A stretch of 39,624 nucleotides of DNA from a virus: IMG/VR virus record IMGVR_UViG_3300049617_000033, positions 1 to 39,624 of that record, one strand, 5' to 3'. Position numbers and translations under genes: made by a program. The notes under the pieces are model-generated. The model did not search any database, was not told the origin of the DNA, and saw nothing but the letters and a program-made list of their open reading frames with translations. Each line of letters opens with the position of its first letter. Position 1 is the stretch's first letter. This document shows, piece by piece, positions 21,795-28,874 of this stretch.

Positions 21795-22132
21795 GCGAGC
21801 CGGATTATGAGAGGTTATCCTTGAGCGATCGCATCGCCTGGCATAACAATCAAGCGCGGCTATATCGTGATGTGCGCCTTCGGTATAAAGGCAGGTACGT
21901 TTTAGCCAAACGGCATGAACAAACCGCTCGCCGTATGGTTTGGGGAGGGTGCTCGATTAGATCGAGCCAAGAAGTGTTGACAGCCATGTCGCTGCACGAA
22001 CGGTCCAGCGCCCCTGCCATGGCCGAAGAACTCGCCCACCTCCGCGCCCCAGATCCCCGCATCGCCGCTGGCTGGACCAAGCCGCCCGTAGCTCAACAGG
22101 TCGATGCCGACCAAAAACCGGAAGGCGAGTGA
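21788..22132 (+). CDS. Hypothetical protein
   Basis: A 114-residue protein, basic in the first half (SLSDRIAWHNNQARLYRDVR) and Ala/Pro-rich in the second. It has no membrane segment and no recognised motif. GGAG lies 9 bases before the ATG, and the gene overlaps both neighbours, so translation is likely. It precedes the small terminase. Confidence 0.55.
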   Translation: MLSEPDYERLSLSDRIAWHNNQARLYRDVRLRYKGRYVLAKRHEQTARRMVWGGCSIRSSQEVLTAMSLHERSSAPAMAEELAHLRAPDPRIAAGWTKPPVAQQVDADQKPEGE

Positions 22133-22650
22133 TGGCGTCCCGCCTCCCATCAAAGCGCATTTACAATCCGCGCAAGGAGGTCGAGCGCAAGAAGCACGCG
22201 CCCCCTCCGCCACCCACAAAGCCTTGGAATCCGACCTACGCCGAGGTGGCCAGGGTCATGGCTGCGGCAGGCAGGACCAATGAGCAGATCGCCGAGCGGA
22301 TCGGTGTGTCGGAAAGACACTTTTACGAATGGAAAAGGGAAAATCCGGCTCTGGGTCAGGCGCTGATTTCTGGACGTGATGGAACCTATGAAGAGGTAGA
22401 ATCCGCAACGCTTAAGTCAATATTGGGCGGTAAGCGTGTGGAGCGCGTGCTGGTTGCCGATAAGGAAACAGGAGAATTGGCAGTCAATCGCATAGTGGAG
22501 GTTGATCTGCCACCTAACGGTGAACTTGGTCTAAAGTGGCTGGAGCGTCGAAATCCGGAGCGTTGGGCTCCAAAGGCGCAGGATATAAATGTGAATCTTA
22601 CGTTTCGGCGAGCGTTAATGGAATTGGCGGAGCTTGATCCGGATGACTGA
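22132..22650 (+). CDS. Terminase small subunit
   Basis: A 172-residue protein. A basic Pro-rich N-terminus leads into a helix-turn-helix (TNEQIAERIGVSERHFYEWK), followed by helices typical of small terminases (SATLKSILGGKRVERVL; GLKWLERRNPERWAPK). It would recognise the packaging site and hand DNA to the large subunit at 23762. The ATG at 22132 overlaps the preceding TGA; a GTG at 22129 is possible. Three small genes separate it from the large subunit. Confidence 0.7.
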   Translation: MASRLPSKRIYNPRKEVERKKHAPPPPPTKPWNPTYAEVARVMAAAGRTNEQIAERIGVSERHFYEWKRENPALGQALISGRDGTYEEVESATLKSILGGKRVERVLVADKETGELAVNRIVEVDLPPNGELGLKWLERRNPERWAPKAQDINVNLTFRRALMELAELDPDD

Positions 22651-22957: not shown

Positions 22958-23042
22958 CAGCACTAATAAGTTGATTGCTGCGTAAAAGGGTTTGATTGTC
23001 TAAATAAAACGTGAGACGACGGGTCATCACAGGAGATCGAGC
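22958..23042 (+). promoter_or_regulatory. Gap before the late operon, possible promoter
   Basis: This A+T-rich 85-base gap is the only untranslated space upstream of the packaging and capsid genes. It holds TTGCTG and, 18 bases on, TCTAAA, a weak sigma70-like pair. AGGAG lies 7 bases before the next ATG. Neither copy of the 23-bp operator occurs here. The promoter call is tentative. Confidence 0.25.
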
Positions 23043-23396
23043 ATGAACTTAGACGACCTCACCATCGGCCAAGCGAAAGAGCTGGCGGCCAAAATGACCC
23101 GCAACACGTCGCACGACCCTGTCCCGGTTATTGTGTGCACGGATAAGCGCGCCGTCGTGTTTGGGTACACAACCGACATTGACGCGCGGCCTATCGTGCT
23201 CACCCAGGCTCGCATGTGTTTGTACTGGTCGGCTGAAGTTGGGGGCGTTTTCGGCTTGGGCGAGATCGGCCCCACGAAAAATTGCAAGATATCCGCCACG
23301 CTCGCCGAGCTGCGACTTGAGGGCGTGACTGCTGTCATGTCGGTTGAGGACAAAGCGGTTAAAGCCTGGGTCGCCGCTAAAGTGCAGGGGCGGTAA
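23043..23396 (+). CDS. DUF6948-like phage protein
   Basis: A 117-residue protein. The pattern PVIVCTDKRAVVFGYTTD, then IVLTQARMCLYWSAEVGG and GEIGPTKNCKIS, matches what I recall of the DUF6948 family of phage proteins, small beta-rich proteins of unknown role. The start is well supported (AGGAG, 7 bases). It is the first gene of the late operon, and its stop overlaps the next start (TAATG), so it is coupled to the Gly/Tyr/Ser repeat gene. Confidence 0.6.
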   Translation: MNLDDLTIGQAKELAAKMTRNTSHDPVPVIVCTDKRAVVFGYTTDIDARPIVLTQARMCLYWSAEVGGVFGLGEIGPTKNCKISATLAELRLEGVTAVMSVEDKAVKAWVAAKVQGR

Positions 23397-23746
23397 TGGC
23401 CACTTTCTTAAGGGGCGGATCCGCCACAGTTAAAGATTTTGGCTTTGGCTATGGCGATGGCTCTGGCTCTGGCACTGGCTTTGGCTATGGCGTTGGCACT
23501 GGCTATGGCTCTGGCTATGGTTATGGCTGCGGCTATGGCGATCGCTTTGGCTATGGCGTTGGCTATGGCTCTGGCTCTGGCGATGGCTATGGCGATGGCT
23601 ATGACTCTGGCTCTGGCTCTGGCGTTGGCGTTGGCTCTGGCTATGGCTATGGCTCTGGCGTTGGCTCTGGCTATGGCTCTGGCTATGACTCTGGCTCTGG
23701 CTCTGGCGTTGGCGTTGGCTCTGGCTTGATTTTGGAGGGCGCTTAA
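23396..23746 (+). CDS. Gly/Tyr/Ser tandem-repeat protein
   Basis: A 116-residue protein that is almost entirely GY, GS, GD and GV dipeptides from residue 15 to 110 (for example GYGSGSGDGYGDGYDSGSGS). It has no hydrophobic core or membrane helix; the short ends (MATFLRGGSATVKD and LILEGA) are ordinary. It is coupled by TAATG overlaps to the genes on both sides. Because every codon family avoids stops, other frames are also open here, but only this one fits the start, stop and spacing. Possible roles are a flexible virion appendage or a condensate-forming protein; neither is shown. Confidence 0.6.
   Translation: MATFLRGGSATVKDFGFGYGDGSGSGTGFGYGVGTGYGSGYGYGCGYGDRFGYGVGYGSGSGDGYGDGYDSGSGSGVGVGSGYGYGSGVGSGYGSGYDSGSGSGVGVGSGLILEGA
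23440..23726 (+). repeat. Hexanucleotide-type tandem repeat (GGCTCT/GGCTAT/GGCGTT units)
   Basis: About 290 bases built from 6-base units GGCTCT, GGCTAT, GGCGAT and GGCGTT. A longer block recurs: ATGACTCTGGCTCTGGCTCT begins near 23609 and a near-copy begins near 23691. The units keep the reading frame of the Gly-rich gene. Repeat number is liable to change by slippage and to be misassembled from short reads. Confidence 0.8.
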
Positions 23747-23761
23747 TGTTTGTTTTGTTTG

Positions 23762-25390
23762 ATGTTGTCGATTGACGCTCAACGTTCTCCCGCTCTGGCG
23801 GCCATCAAGGACGTTGAGGTCGATGCGCTTCAGCGGTTGCGGCGTGATTACCCGTTTTTCGCCAAATCAAGCCTTAAGATCACCACCAAAGCCGGTGGGC
23901 TGATTCCGTTCGAGCTTAACCGCGCTCAAAGGTTTTTCGATGAGGCTTGCGATGATCAGCGTCGGCGCACGGGCATGGTCCGCAAAATCGTGGTCAAGGG
24001 CCGACGGATGGGCATATCGACCAACGTCCAGGGCCGTTTTTATCACAAGCTGTGGAAGGCCAAGGACCCGCTCAGGGCTTACATTCTGACACACGAGCAA
24101 AAGGCTTCTGACGTTCTGTTTGGCATCACGAAGCGTTTTGCCGACAACCACGAGCAAGGTTTAGCAAGCGCGCCGATTGATCGCGATTCGGCCAAAGAGC
24201 TGGTCTTTGCCGACAGCGGGGCTTCTTATGGCGTCGCTACGGCGGGCTCCAAGGCTGTGGGGAGAGGCGACACAATTCAGCTCTTTCACGGCTCTGAAGT
24301 CGCCTATTGGCCCAACGCGGAGGTTCATGTTGACGGCGTTATTGGCGCCGTAGGGCGCACTCGCGGCACCGAGATCATCTTGGAGTCGACCGCCAACGGC
24401 GTGGGCAACCTGTTCCACAAAATGGCCATGGCGGCGCTTAGGGGGCAAAGCGAATATGAGCTGATATTTCTGCCATGGTATTGGGACGATACGTGCCGGC
24501 TTGAGTGTCCCGCCACGTTCGATCCCAGCCCTGAGTGGATTGAATATGCTCGCGAGAACAGTTTAGAGTGGGATCAGCTCTATTGGGCGTATATCGAGAA
24601 TCGCACCAAAGCCAATGCTACGGGGGGTACGGCGGACAAGCCTTGTCCGTCGTTTATGCAGGAGTACCCCGCCAATGTTGAAGAGGCGTTCCAAACCTCA
24701 GGCAACAGCTTTATCCCTGCCAACGCCGTCATGCGCGCGAGGCGGCCGGAGCGGGATGTCATTGGAACCGGACCTGTCATTCTTGGGATCGATCCCAGCC
24801 GATCTAGAGACAGGGTCGGCGTCATCGACCGGTGTGGGCGTCGTGCTGGACAGCGCGTGTGTGCGCGTCTTGATCCAGGGGGGTCGCTGGTCTACCTTGC
24901 CAACCAGCTTGCGGCGCTGATCGACAAGATGCAGCCCGACATGGTCAACATCGATGTGGGCGGCGTTGGGGCCGGTGTGTACGATGTGCTGGTCGACTAT
25001 GGCTATGGCGATATCTGCAATGCCGTAAACTTTGGCTCAAACCCTATTGGGCGAGGTCCTACAGGCGACACCATGTACTTCAATCGCCGGGCTGAGATGC
25101 ACGATGAGATGCGAGCTTGGTTTCAGGGGGATATGCCGGTCCAGATACCCGATGATGACGGGCTCCAGAACGATTTATGCGCGCCTGAGTGGGGACCTGG
25201 CGCGTGTCGATACAATTCCAATAACGAGCTGATCATTGAGGAAAAAGACCGGATTAAGGAGCGTTTGGGGGCTTCGCCTGACCTGTCCGATGGACTGGCC
25301 TTAACGTTCGCGGTGCCGTATGCTCGGGACATGCGCTCTCAAAACCGCCCTATGGTCAAGCGGAGAAAGTCGCGCACCACTGGGTATTGA
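23762..25390 (+). CDS. terL: Terminase large subunit
   Basis: A 542-residue packaging motor. The ATPase half has an arginine-type Walker A (VKGRRMGIST, about 79-87), a Walker B region (IQLFHGSEVAYW, about 172-183) and the coupling motif ILESTANG (about 206-213). The nuclease half has Asp344 (ILGIDPS), Asp398 (NIDVGGVGAG) and Asp507/510 (PDLSDGLALTF), an RNase H-like metal site. The ATG at 23762 lacks its own ribosome site; a strong GGAGGG serves a 9-codon frame at 23746 that overlaps this start. TTG at 23750 is an alternative. It precedes the portal gene, as is usual. Confidence 0.9.
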   Translation: MLSIDAQRSPALAAIKDVEVDALQRLRRDYPFFAKSSLKITTKAGGLIPFELNRAQRFFDEACDDQRRRTGMVRKIVVKGRRMGISTNVQGRFYHKLWKAKDPLRAYILTHEQKASDVLFGITKRFADNHEQGLASAPIDRDSAKELVFADSGASYGVATAGSKAVGRGDTIQLFHGSEVAYWPNAEVHVDGVIGAVGRTRGTEIILESTANGVGNLFHKMAMAALRGQSEYELIFLPWYWDDTCRLECPATFDPSPEWIEYARENSLEWDQLYWAYIENRTKANATGGTADKPCPSFMQEYPANVEEAFQTSGNSFIPANAVMRARRPERDVIGTGPVILGIDPSRSRDRVGVIDRCGRRAGQRVCARLDPGGSLVYLANQLAALIDKMQPDMVNIDVGGVGAGVYDVLVDYGYGDICNAVNFGSNPIGRGPTGDTMYFNRRAEMHDEMRAWFQGDMPVQIPDDDGLQNDLCAPEWGPGACRYNSNNELIIEEKDRIKERLGASPDLSDGLALTFAVPYARDMRSQNRPMVKRRKSRTTGY

Positions 25391-25401
25391 GGGGACGATA
25401 G

Positions 25402-27831
25402 ATGGCGCGTCGCGGCGGTGAAGCTGGTGGATCACGCAACCCTTTGATGGTGCAGCGCCGGCCTTTGCCTGAGCCGCTGGCCAATATCGACACCAAAAAC
25501 CAGAGCCGGCGTGCGCAGGTCGCCCAGTTCAGCGGTAACGGTCGCGACAGCGGTAACGGTCGCGACAGCGGTAACGGTCGCGACAGCGGAGGAAGCTTGT
25601 CGGAGCCCGCCAACGATGGCGGCGAAGCGGAAAGCAAATCCTCGCTTGGATCATCGGCCCTTGAGACCTTGTTGAGCTTTGTCCAGCGTAATGGCGATAT
25701 CAGCGACCTGCTGGACGACGGCGTGATCAACTCGATTGGTGTTAATGCGGTGCGAGAGTATCGCATGGACCTTGGCTCGATTGCGCAATGGCGTGAGGAT
25801 GCTGAGCGCGCCATCGCCATCGCCGCCCAGGAGACGGATGAGGACGGCGAGGCCAAGACCTATCCGTTTGAGGATGCGTCGGACATTCACTTTCCCTTAT
25901 TGACCACCGCAAGCCAGCAGTGGGCGGCCAGGGCGGGACCTGAGCTGGTCAAGGGCGATCAAGTCGTGGGCGTTAAGGCTTTCGACATTCCGGAACCCAA
26001 AACTAGTCCCATTCAGGCGTTACAGCTCGCGCCCAAGCCTCAAGCGCCGCCGCCTGGACAGCAGCAGCAGGCCGCTACCGTGCTGGCTGGCGCTCAGCAA
26101 GGCGCTGTGGATCCATCCAGCCCCGGCGTGGCCGTCGCCCAACAGCAGACCGACCAAGCCGCGAGTGCGAACGCCCAAGCTCAGGCGATGCAATCTCAAG
26201 CGCAGGCGCAGCAGCAGGCGCTAAATCAGCAAAAGTTGGAGCAACAGGCGCGGGAGTCGCGGGCGGACCGCGTCAAGACGTTCCTTAATTTTTGCATCTT
26301 TTATCGCATGGAAGCGTGGGAAGACGACACGGATCAGCTTCTGACTGACCTGCCGATCCTGGGCTGTGGTTTCAAGAAAACGTATGTGTCCGATACGGGT
26401 TTGCAGTCGGATTATGTGTCTCCGATGCACTTTACGGTGCATAGGGACACGAAGAGCTTAAACAAATGCCCGCGGATGACGCAGGACTATGAAATCTATC
26501 CCAACGAAATTGATGAGGGTCAGCGTACGGGTCGATTCCGTCCGGACGTTGTGCTTGCGCACGTCGGCTCTGACCCGGATCAGCCCCGCACATTCCTCGA
26601 GCAACACCGCCTTGAAGACTTGGATGGCGATGGGTTGCGCGAGCCCTACATCGTCACGGTAGATGAGCAAACAATGCAGGTGATGCGGATCGAACCCGCA
26701 TTTACAGCCGATGGCGTTAAGATCGATGAGCGGCGGGTGATCACGAGGATTGAGCGGTGGCAGGCTTACAGTGCGTTCAAGTTCATGCCTCACCCCCGCG
26801 GGTGGTTTTATGGTATCGGCTTCGGCAAGCTGTTGGCTCCGATCTCCGACAGCGTGGACAGCTCGATCAACCAGCTCATCGACGCGGGCAACGCGGCCAT
26901 AGCCGGGGGAGGGTTTATCGGGTCGCAGGTCAGGATACAGGGGTCTGCTGCTGGCGGTGCGCTATTTATGCAGCCTGGCGAGTATCAGGTGGTGGCCACA
27001 TCGGGGCCGGACCTTCGATCGGCCATTTATGAGCGCACGACGCCTAATGTGTCGCCGGTGACGTTTCAGATGCTGGAAATGCTGATCGGGGCCGGCAAGG
27101 ACATCGCCTCGATTAAGGACGTGGCGTCTGGCGACACGCCTACGACCGCCCCGGTAGGTACGACGTTGGCCGTGATGAATCAGGCGCTCCAAGGCTTCAC
27201 GGCGATCTGGGCGCGCGTGTACCGTGGTTTCACGCAAGAATTCGCCAACATGTACGACTGCGTTAAGCGGTTTGCCGACGACAACCTGCGTCAATTGTAC
27301 GCAGAAGTAACGGGCGGCGACCTTGATCAGGATTTCGCAGGCGACGGCACGGACATTCGCCCCGTGGCCGACCCGCGTACGGTCACGAAGATGCAAAAGG
27401 TGGCCAAGGCTCAAGGTCTCGCCCAGGTCGCTGAAAGCCCTGTAGGTCAAGCGGCAGGCATGACCCAACCGGGTCCGGCGCAAGAGATCGTCCGTGAAAT
27501 GCTGGATGTGCTGGACATTGACCGTCCTGAGCGGTTCTTCGCCAATGCGCCTCCGAACCCAATTGAGATGGCCAAAGCGCAATCCGATGCTGCGGCGGCG
27601 CAGCTTAAGCAGGCTCAGGCTCAATCAGCGCAAGCCAGCGCTCAGCTCAGCCAGGCCAAGACAGTTCGGGAAATGGGGCTGGCGGCTATCGACAGTCACG
27701 ACTTGGCCAAGGAGGGCGACCGAATCAATCGCACGGGATCGATTGCGGACACGCCGAAAGATCCTGACGCGGCGCAGATGCAAGGGGCTGGACCTGGCGC
27801 TGAAATGCCGCCGCCGTCGTCTGCGCCATGA
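25402..27831 (+). CDS. Portal protein (P22-type)
   Basis: An 809-residue portal through which DNA enters and leaves the head. Core patterns: ASDIHFPLLTTASQQWAARA, then FLNFCIFYRMEAWEDDTDQL, SPMHFTVHRDTKSLN, GWFYGIGFGKLLAPISDSVD and DAGNAAIAGGGFIGSQV. Two oddities: an N-terminal SGNGRD repeat (three exact 18-bp copies), and a roughly 90-residue Gln/Ala-rich segment (residues about 205-290) inserted before the conserved FLNF helix. The C-terminus is a Gln/Ala coiled coil, as in P22 portal barrels. GAGGGGA 6 bases upstream supports the start. It follows the large terminase by 11 bases. Confidence 0.85.
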   Translation: MARRGGEAGGSRNPLMVQRRPLPEPLANIDTKNQSRRAQVAQFSGNGRDSGNGRDSGNGRDSGGSLSEPANDGGEAESKSSLGSSALETLLSFVQRNGDISDLLDDGVINSIGVNAVREYRMDLGSIAQWREDAERAIAIAAQETDEDGEAKTYPFEDASDIHFPLLTTASQQWAARAGPELVKGDQVVGVKAFDIPEPKTSPIQALQLAPKPQAPPPGQQQQAATVLAGAQQGAVDPSSPGVAVAQQQTDQAASANAQAQAMQSQAQAQQQALNQQKLEQQARESRADRVKTFLNFCIFYRMEAWEDDTDQLLTDLPILGCGFKKTYVSDTGLQSDYVSPMHFTVHRDTKSLNKCPRMTQDYEIYPNEIDEGQRTGRFRPDVVLAHVGSDPDQPRTFLEQHRLEDLDGDGLREPYIVTVDEQTMQVMRIEPAFTADGVKIDERRVITRIERWQAYSAFKFMPHPRGWFYGIGFGKLLAPISDSVDSSINQLIDAGNAAIAGGGFIGSQVRIQGSAAGGALFMQPGEYQVVATSGPDLRSAIYERTTPNVSPVTFQMLEMLIGAGKDIASIKDVASGDTPTTAPVGTTLAVMNQALQGFTAIWARVYRGFTQEFANMYDCVKRFADDNLRQLYAEVTGGDLDQDFAGDGTDIRPVADPRTVTKMQKVAKAQGLAQVAESPVGQAAGMTQPGPAQEIVREMLDVLDIDRPERFFANAPPNPIEMAKAQSDAAAAQLKQAQAQSAQASAQLSQAKTVREMGLAAIDSHDLAKEGDRINRTGSIADTPKDPDAAQMQGAGPGAEMPPPSSAP
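25531..25584 (+). repeat. Three exact 18-bp tandem repeats in the portal gene
   Basis: The unit AGCGGTAACGGTCGCGAC occurs three times without mismatch and encodes SGNGRD each time. Perfect identity means the duplication is recent or is being homogenised. Confidence 0.9.
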
Positions 27832-28356: not shown

Positions 28357-28874
28357 CCAAATCCGTTCCCCATATGGGAAAGATCGGCGACGCCAAGCTC
28401 GATCAATGCCCGGCTTTGGACAAATGCTTTCCGGGCTTGGAGCCGCTGGAATATAATCTCATCGTTGCGCCCGCGGTGATCGAAGAGAAAACCCAGGGCG
28501 GCTTGATCCTTCCCGAGATCGCCCGTGAGCGTATCGACCTTGCTATGCAGATCGGCCGGGTTGTGGCTGTGAGCCCCATCGCGTTTAATTACGACAAGTG
28601 GCCGGACGGCACGCATCCGCCGGAACCTGGCGATATCGTGTGGTTCGCCCGCTATGCTGGCGGCGAGTTCATCGGCATGGACGGCCGCACTTACCGGCTG
28701 ATTAAGGACAAGGACGTCGGCGCGCGCGTGCCTGTGGCGCCTCCGCACATGCAAGCCGAGCCGGCCATGCAAGCCGAGCCGGCCCCTCAAGCAGCGGAAT
28801 ATGAGCAAGCAGCGGAATATGAGGCTTATATTGAAAGCCTTAAGGTCCAAATCAGAAAAGAAGCCAATGCCTAG
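28353..28874 (+). CDS. GroES-like co-chaperonin
   Basis: A 173-residue protein whose residues about 30-120 follow the GroES/Cpn10 fold: YNLIVAPAVIEEKTQGGLIL, then GRVVAVSPIAFNYDKW, EPGDIVWFARYAGGEFIGMD and TYRLIKDKDV. GGLILPE is the mobile loop that would dock on host GroEL. Phage co-chaperonins (T4 gp31 is the best known) help fold the capsid protein. The last 45 residues carry two exact 18-bp tandem duplications (MQAEPA and QAAEYE units). The GTG start has GGAG 8 bases upstream. It lies just before the scaffold and capsid genes. Confidence 0.75.
   Translation: MTKSVPHMGKIGDAKLDQCPALDKCFPGLEPLEYNLIVAPAVIEEKTQGGLILPEIARERIDLAMQIGRVVAVSPIAFNYDKWPDGTHPPEPGDIVWFARYAGGEFIGMDGRTYRLIKDKDVGARVPVAPPHMQAEPAMQAEPAPQAAEYEQAAEYEAYIESLKVQIRKEANA
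28749..28823 (+). repeat. Two pairs of exact 18-bp tandem repeats in the GroES-like gene
   Basis: ATGCAAGCCGAGCCGGCC occurs at 28749-28766 and 28767-28784; CAAGCAGCGGAATATGAG occurs at 28788-28805 and 28806-28823. Both keep the frame and have the same unit length as the portal repeat. Confidence 0.9.

Follow-up and report, generated by a model that had tools for sequence, protein, structure and literature searches.

A widespread phage gene pair: DUF6948, with a predicted Sm-like fold, and a hypervariable Gly-X repeat protein

A gene of a virus that encodes a glycine-repeat protein next to the large terminase belongs to a two-gene phage module, made up of a DUF6948 gene and the gene for a Gly-X protein, in which glycine alternates with a second residue (X). 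Proximity to the terminase is incidental to this module. Computational analysis of the module and its relatives establishes the pairing of the two genes, the adjoining start of the second, selection on the residues of the repeat, the predicted fold of DUF6948 and fast in-frame turnover of the repeat array. The pair is widespread among phages and looks like an apparently undescribed system rather than a terminase oddity.

The analysis began from a 39,624-bp linear IMG/VR virus record, here called the window. A sequence-only reading had described a Gly/Tyr/Ser gene built from a 6-base repeat and lying between a DUF6948-like gene and the large terminase in the same operon; we confirmed the gene, its repeat and its two neighbours, all on one strand (Table 1). 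Judged by its sequence, the upstream gene is a clear DUF6948 member: its product scores 71.5 bits against PF22253, above the Pfam gathering cut-off of 27 (E 6.7e-20, profile positions 3-85 of 85). The ribosome-binding-like site of the Gly-X gene falls within the final DUF6948 codons (..VQGR), and the last residues of the DUF6948 relatives inspected are likewise QGR, with CAGGG or CAAGG in the coding sequence. Upstream of the pair, the window carries helicase and primase genes.

Table 1. Features of the window around the DUF6948 and Gly-X genes
Feature	Position	Strand	Details
Small terminase	22129-22650		
AGGAG, ribosome-binding-like site for DUF6948 gene	23031-23035	+	Sequence reading
DUF6948 gene	23043-23396	+	117 aa, Pfam PF22253
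AGGGG, ribosome-binding-like site for Gly-X gene	23386-23390	+	Sequence reading
TAATG, DUF6948 stop and Gly-X ATG with one common base	23394-23398	+	
Gly-X repeat protein gene	23396-23746	+	116 aa, computed pI 4.05
Hexamer array (TGGCNN)n	23440-23726	+	Tandem Repeats Finder, 47.8 copies
Large terminase	23750-25390	+	phrog_2, E 2e-23
Portal	25402-27831		

The Gly-X product reads MATFLRGGSATVKDFG, followed by an FGYGDGSG... repeat and a C-terminal LILEGA. Its (Gly-X)n stretch spans about 98 of the 116 codons, with Ser, Tyr, Val, Asp, Phe or Thr as X. A Pfam search returned no match above cut-off (KRTAP at E 0.0049 and TrAA12 at E 0.14 both fell below it), and a PHROG search gave none. Tandem Repeats Finder scored the array 245 at a 6-bp period and 280 at a 12-bp period. 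Glycine is coded by GGC in 44 of 45 array codons, and X by TCT (16), TAT (14) and GTT (7), then GAT, TTT and ACT. Across the 19 window ORFs taken as genes, TAT accounts for 52% of Tyr codons, TCT for 13% of Ser, GAT for 40% of Asp and GGC for 51% of Gly; multiplying these shares over the array gives roughly 10^-37.8, and codon choice in the array is thus unlike the ordinary codon use of window genes. Three further frames are also open across the array, one on the plus strand (LALAMA...) and two on the minus strand (ARARAI... and SQSHSQ...), so an open frame by itself is no proof of coding. Elsewhere in the window, the portal-protein gene contains a perfect 18-bp repeat of 3.3 copies (25530-25589), and more 18-bp repeats lie at 28748 to 28823.

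The pairing was examined from both of its members. Arrays were fetched by DNA pattern, and association was counted over those with at least 450 nt of upstream sequence (147 among the matches listed), using a profile search with arrays removed and low-complexity runs masked. An iterated DUF6948 profile found a family member within 1,200 nt upstream of 136 of the 147 arrays listed and detected none upstream of the other 11; the un-iterated profile found one for 90 of the 147. Only 8 of 8,633 control pieces matched the iterated profile and none the un-iterated one, and an array lay within 700 nt downstream of 3 of those 8 matches. Among the matches listed, 147 of 172 DUF6948 matches ended within 80 nt of the array. 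We submitted 109 proteins to Pfam (the window protein, 19 fetched by homology and 89 fetched by pattern, the 108 relatives being drawn from 161 proteins). Pfam assigned DUF6948 to 105 of them, which means that at least 85 of the 89 pattern-fetched proteins are DUF6948.

Starting from DUF6948, 9 of the first 10 relatives of the window protein in viral contigs were followed by a Gly-X ORF, with unrelated genes beyond. This subfamily was widened to 30 viral and 2 genome loci, and 31 were informative after exclusion of L019, which ends 22 nt past the gene. An array followed DUF6948 in 29 of the 31, some of these arrays being short, imperfect or truncated where the contig ends; L025 is among the loci with an array, and the two without a downstream Gly-X array are L010 and L024. 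A second subfamily (consensus RTYSAGVF) was fetched by homology from 14 seeds, all beside arrays. Among the matches listed, 78 of 80 loci of this type had an array downstream, and one of the misses had only 36 nt of downstream sequence. At least 585 related loci were confirmed in one scan.

The pair singled out in the window likewise proved to be conserved in other phages. Of 15 distinct phage records carrying a relative, 14 show an array downstream of DUF6948, in some cases a short or imperfect one. They are seven Pectobacterium phages, Dickeya phage Setonix, a Vibrio phage, phiPLPE, CV-1-33, ct8d5349 (imperfect) and two faecal scaffolds (short). DUF6948 is mostly viral: among 398 genomes of one bacterial phylum, the only one with a match was the seed genome.

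Several loci depart from this layout or from its annotation. In Iodobacter phage phiPLPE (EU876853.1), a Gly-X ORF (L012:1173-1409, plus strand) overlaps the end of gene 84 and is unannotated, and in CV-1-33 the deposited gene at the array is read in another frame. The array of ctRVW222 (MW202478.1; L366 from about 1507, plus strand) precedes DUF6948 instead of following it and sits, in a different frame, under the first part of a deposited gene (1505-2077). L024 carries, after 4366, a different short repeat behind DUF6948 (LSGDVTGLYGNVTG..., not Gly-X), and pentapeptide-like repeats lie beyond the L028 array. At least two separate Gly-X ORFs, with DUF6948 not detected by the profile, occur in each of L057, L144, L179, L235 and L247.

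The genes beyond the pair indicate its setting. The gene downstream of each array was taken as the longest ORF of at least 70 aa starting within 600 nt, and 137 of 168 candidates were aligned. The families listed are led by HNH nucleases, DNA methyltransferases, ParB-like proteins, RecE, Erf, NinB and RecT, the largest accounting for 4 of the 137 genes; recognisable neighbours are thus mostly genes of early DNA metabolism. A single small-terminase match appeared among the 137 genes (25 of 40 Pfam families listed), and the terminase coupling suggested by the window is rejected as the meaning of the pair. Ymer-group phages have it co-oriented with Erf and SSB genes and flanked by tail genes on the opposite strand. 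Restriction-alleviation and methyltransferase genes follow the pair in a few loci. In one of the 137 cases, a gene for a Ro60 protein (TROVE and vWA; L006:4664-6286, plus strand) immediately follows the Gly-X gene.

In some Gly-X proteins, the array is followed by a C-terminal domain. A domain of about 150 aa is fused to arrays at L220 (9409-9867, minus strand) and 16 other loci (alignment A5); its invariant D, HG and H...T.SC..GR give it a possibly enzyme-like look. An AlphaFold2 model of this domain reached pLDDT 94.3, yet its PDB matches were uninformative (Foldseek E at least 0.26, Z at most 4.9). A second fused domain, with an LHATLIPPKW.GERWWIVAL-like motif, occurs in the tails of L122, L175, L223, L227, L249 and L263; the two that were scanned, L249 and L263, received no Pfam name.

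The Gly-X gene almost certainly encodes a real protein. Among the matches listed were 149 loci in which DUF6948 ends within 120 nt of the array, and all of them have a start codon in the array frame (only GTG or TTG in 16). Stops or frameshifts in relatives had been named as grounds for doubting that a protein is made, and none of these 149 loci lacks an array-frame start. In 129 of the 149 loci listed, the Gly-X frame has an ATG no more than 20 nt from the DUF6948 stop and is open to the array; for the remaining two frames this holds in 31 and 3 loci. In 48 loci this ATG lies at exactly -10 from the DUF6948 stop, always over an in-frame DUF6948 TGG codon. Because the Gly-X start lies inside or at the end of the DUF6948 gene, the two are probably translated together.

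Composition also points to selection on the protein. We took composition from two homology-fetched sets only; pattern-chosen arrays fix bases. In these sets X is Tyr (shares of 0.41 and 0.28), Ser (0.23 and 0.39) or Asp (0.21 in both) in 86% and 88% of units. Alanine is avoided despite easy access: a single step separates GCY from GAY and from TCY, and 9 GCY codons were counted where independent bases predict 205 (2,387 units of the RTYSAG set), which we regard as the clearest sign of selection on the residues. Across 28 homology-fetched arrays, third bases are near-frozen within arrays (means of 0.24 and 0.26 bits), whereas X is variable at its first and second bases (0.89 and 0.96 bits), and different arrays use different frozen sets (GGC-NNT, GGC-NNC and GGT-NNC). 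Repeated hexamer expansion combined with selection for a residue mix would give this pattern of frozen third bases and variable X. The Gly-X gene behaves like a coding partner of DUF6948; the Tyr in Gly/Ser make-up first seen in the window, with Asp added, is kept while the sequence changes.

Frozen third bases would also fit a repeat that acted as RNA or DNA, for instance as a structured leader or as a recombination or packaging site, with the protein as a by-product. Arrays do change far faster than their flanks, and the RNA fold of the window array has a z of -4.6 against dinucleotide shuffles, none of 100 being as good; we judge this z a probable by-product of the shuffling, which also removes periodicity. 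However, the Gly frame and the choice of Tyr, Ser and Asp are kept across GGC-NNT, GGC-NNC and GGT-NNC arrays, the avoidance of Ala is most simply explained by the Gly-X frame, and start codons are enriched in that frame. A nucleic-acid role is accordingly very unlikely. The combination of variable first and second X bases with a frozen third also raised the idea of a diversity-generating retroelement. Such elements follow a rule, adenine mutagenesis of an AAY template, and the T/G bias of the first base does not fit it. RVT_1 (PF00078) was not found in the window's record, which is possibly a fragment.

The arrays are hypervariable, with very fast in-frame turnover, free order and constant composition. 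In the Pectobacterium phages Ymer and Amona, the sequence is the same for 2,774 nt before the array and for the first 1,500 nt after it, yet the arrays themselves differ over a middle of 133 and 115 nt. The 2.65% difference over 2,268 nt between these phages lies beyond those first 1,500 nt, and the identity of the latter ruled out the array as a mosaic breakpoint between the two. L204 and L240 match exactly over 807 nt upstream and differ once in 1,500 nt downstream, but their arrays differ by 162 nt, or 27 units, in keeping with the variable repeat number anticipated from the window. At the other extreme, the arrays of L218 and L258 show a single-base difference, Tyr to Ser. Among 15 close pairs listed, several of them repeat fetches of one contig, 14 have different arrays and 13 have different lengths. 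According to PMC11445585, sequencing of the Pectobacterium phages used a 300-cycle NextSeq kit, so that assembly errors may affect parts of arrays this long. The ends of several metagenome contigs fall within or next to an array.

A tandem repeat whose length differs between near-identical phages could act as an on/off switch through slippage, and the sequence-only reading had raised phase variation. The length differences are all multiples of 6 in 15 of the 15 close pairs listed, a measure taken in the Gly-X frame, where only 0 or 3 modulo 6 is possible. No lost frame was seen in the arrays of the relatives examined, and annotated Ymer-group Gly-X genes share one ATG and end at in-frame stops, in five different lengths. 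With a 6-bp unit, repeat number was not seen to switch the frame, and we rejected membership among contingency loci. The missing frame loss argues for turnover instead of on/off switching, which we consider extremely improbable.

DUF6948 very probably has an Sm-like fold, a helix followed by five bent antiparallel strands, as judged from structure prediction. The AlphaFold2 model of the window protein, built on 109 aligned sequences, reached pLDDT 94.0 and pTM 0.78. It places a helix at residues 8-18, strands at 27-33, 38-43 and 51-61, an extra helix at 68-74, strands at 87-92 and 95-100, and a C-terminal helix at 103-111. In a Foldseek search of the PDB, the best 50 of 771 matches (E up to 10) were all Sm/LSm or spliceosomal/snRNP complexes by title, with a best E of 1.3e-3 and probabilities of 0.99-1.00; the matched chains in the complexes were taken to be Sm proteins. 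By title, the best 50 of 704 VIA-align matches were Sm/LSm or spliceosomal, snRNP and related RNA-processing complexes. The top one, 3by7, had Z 7.3 (rmsd 2.6, 69 aligned residues), and by the tool's own warning a DALI-scale Z below 8 can reflect a common arrangement. We favour the Sm-like match because no other fold occurs among the best 50 matches listed.

Sequence comparison is less decisive. At E 1e-3, no Pfam family other than DUF6948 matched across the 109 members. An hhalign comparison of the broad DUF6948 alignment with Sm/LSm/Hfq gave E 0.072, aligned in the expected register, and 2 of 100 column-shuffled controls reached as high a score; the RTYSAG subfamily gave E 0.31, with 12 of 100 as high. 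Neither is significant. Against the same Sm set, an unrelated alignment scored 13.5 and DUF6948 14.3. We therefore speak of an Sm-like fold and not of an LSm family member.

These results suggest a division of labour between the two proteins, which we think quite probably act together. The first gene would supply a small protein with an Sm/LSm-like fold and the second a low-complexity, acidic and probably disordered protein of Gly with Tyr, Ser and Asp. From gene order, the two may bind each other, and they may act early in infection. DUF6948 would give binding specificity, with RNA as the obvious candidate target, and the Gly-X protein, which has little Arg or Lys, would give many weak Tyr-based contacts. 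Together they could form a multivalent assembly, scaffold or condensate, and gain, loss or exchange of hexamers would alter the length and order of the array in frame, tuning the assembly or escaping recognition. Free order with fixed composition is expected of a disordered scaffold part. For the full proposal, a disordered Gly-X protein co-translated with an Sm-fold partner and acting with it as a multivalent assembly or condensate, we consider the chances evenly balanced. That a condensate or scaffold is formed is a tentative assignment, somewhat below even, and composition alone is no proof of condensates.

Strict alternation of Gly suits extended polyglycine packing, and the Gly-X protein could instead be an extracellular or virion adhesin or filament, such as a polyglycine-II bundle of the kind found in some glycine-rich tail-fibre tips; the pair does adjoin tail genes in Ymer-group phages. 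There, however, it is co-oriented with Erf and SSB and opposite to the tail genes. An adhesive virion filament is made less likely by neighbours that mainly serve DNA metabolism and by a partner predicted to be Sm-like, and we hold it distinctly unlikely. Somewhat less remote, though still unlikely, is an arms-race decoy or inhibitor, in which a variable protein on an Sm-fold carrier would block or bait host defence and its variation would be escape. Arrays that differ between phages with identical flanks, the mostly viral distribution and the few loci with restriction-alleviation or methyltransferase genes after the pair speak for such a role. Narrow composition with free order speaks more for a disordered scaffold than for a specific epitope, and no defence target is known. 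The multivalent assembly of DUF6948 and Gly-X proteins remains the reading we prefer.

Known systems offer partial likenesses. DUF6948 (PF22253) bears a family name that stands for unknown function; a Gly-X partner and a predicted Sm-like fold are added here. Its model shares an N-terminal helix and five strands with Sm/LSm/Hfq proteins but has an extra helix between strands 3 and 4. The title of 3by7, from an uncultured source, calls that protein 'structurally similar to Sm/LSm-like RNA-binding proteins'. FUS-like low-complexity domains have Tyr spaced by Gly and Ser, little Arg or Lys, and free order with fixed composition. The phage protein shares these traits and differs in its strict dipeptide period and high Asp content.

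In Acinetobacter Hfq, glycine-rich GGFGGQ C-terminal repeats are reported to be needed for nutrient use and stress tolerance (PMC11617691). As in the phage pair, an Sm core is there combined with a glycine-rich low-complexity part, but that repeat is a tail of the same protein and has another pattern, whereas the phage repeat is a separate hypervariable gene with strict Gly-X alternation. Hfq condensates have also been reported (PMC12455900). Acinetobacter Hfq and these condensates come closest to working parallels. Within the literature searched, which takes in few subscription papers, no mention of DUF6948 or DUF7666 was found, nor any account of an Sm-like phage protein paired with a Gly-repeat protein.

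A gene pair so common without a described function represents a gap in phage biology, and cultured phages carrying the pair exist. A broader reading, which we regard as rather doubtful, is that tailed phages widely encode a kit for ribonucleoprotein condensates, consisting of an Sm-fold ring and a hypervariable co-translated scaffold of Gly with Tyr, Ser or Asp. Early in the infection, the kit would form a membraneless compartment on RNA of the phage or the host, and in-frame hexamer changes would let the scaffold outpace the flanking genes. If DUF6948 does bind RNA through an Sm fold and the Gly-X protein is its disordered scaffold, the pair would be a minimal two-gene phage counterpart of the Sm-plus-low-complexity arrangement of RNA granules, and its scaffold, evolving by countable hexamer steps, would amount to a natural experiment on low-complexity composition and length.
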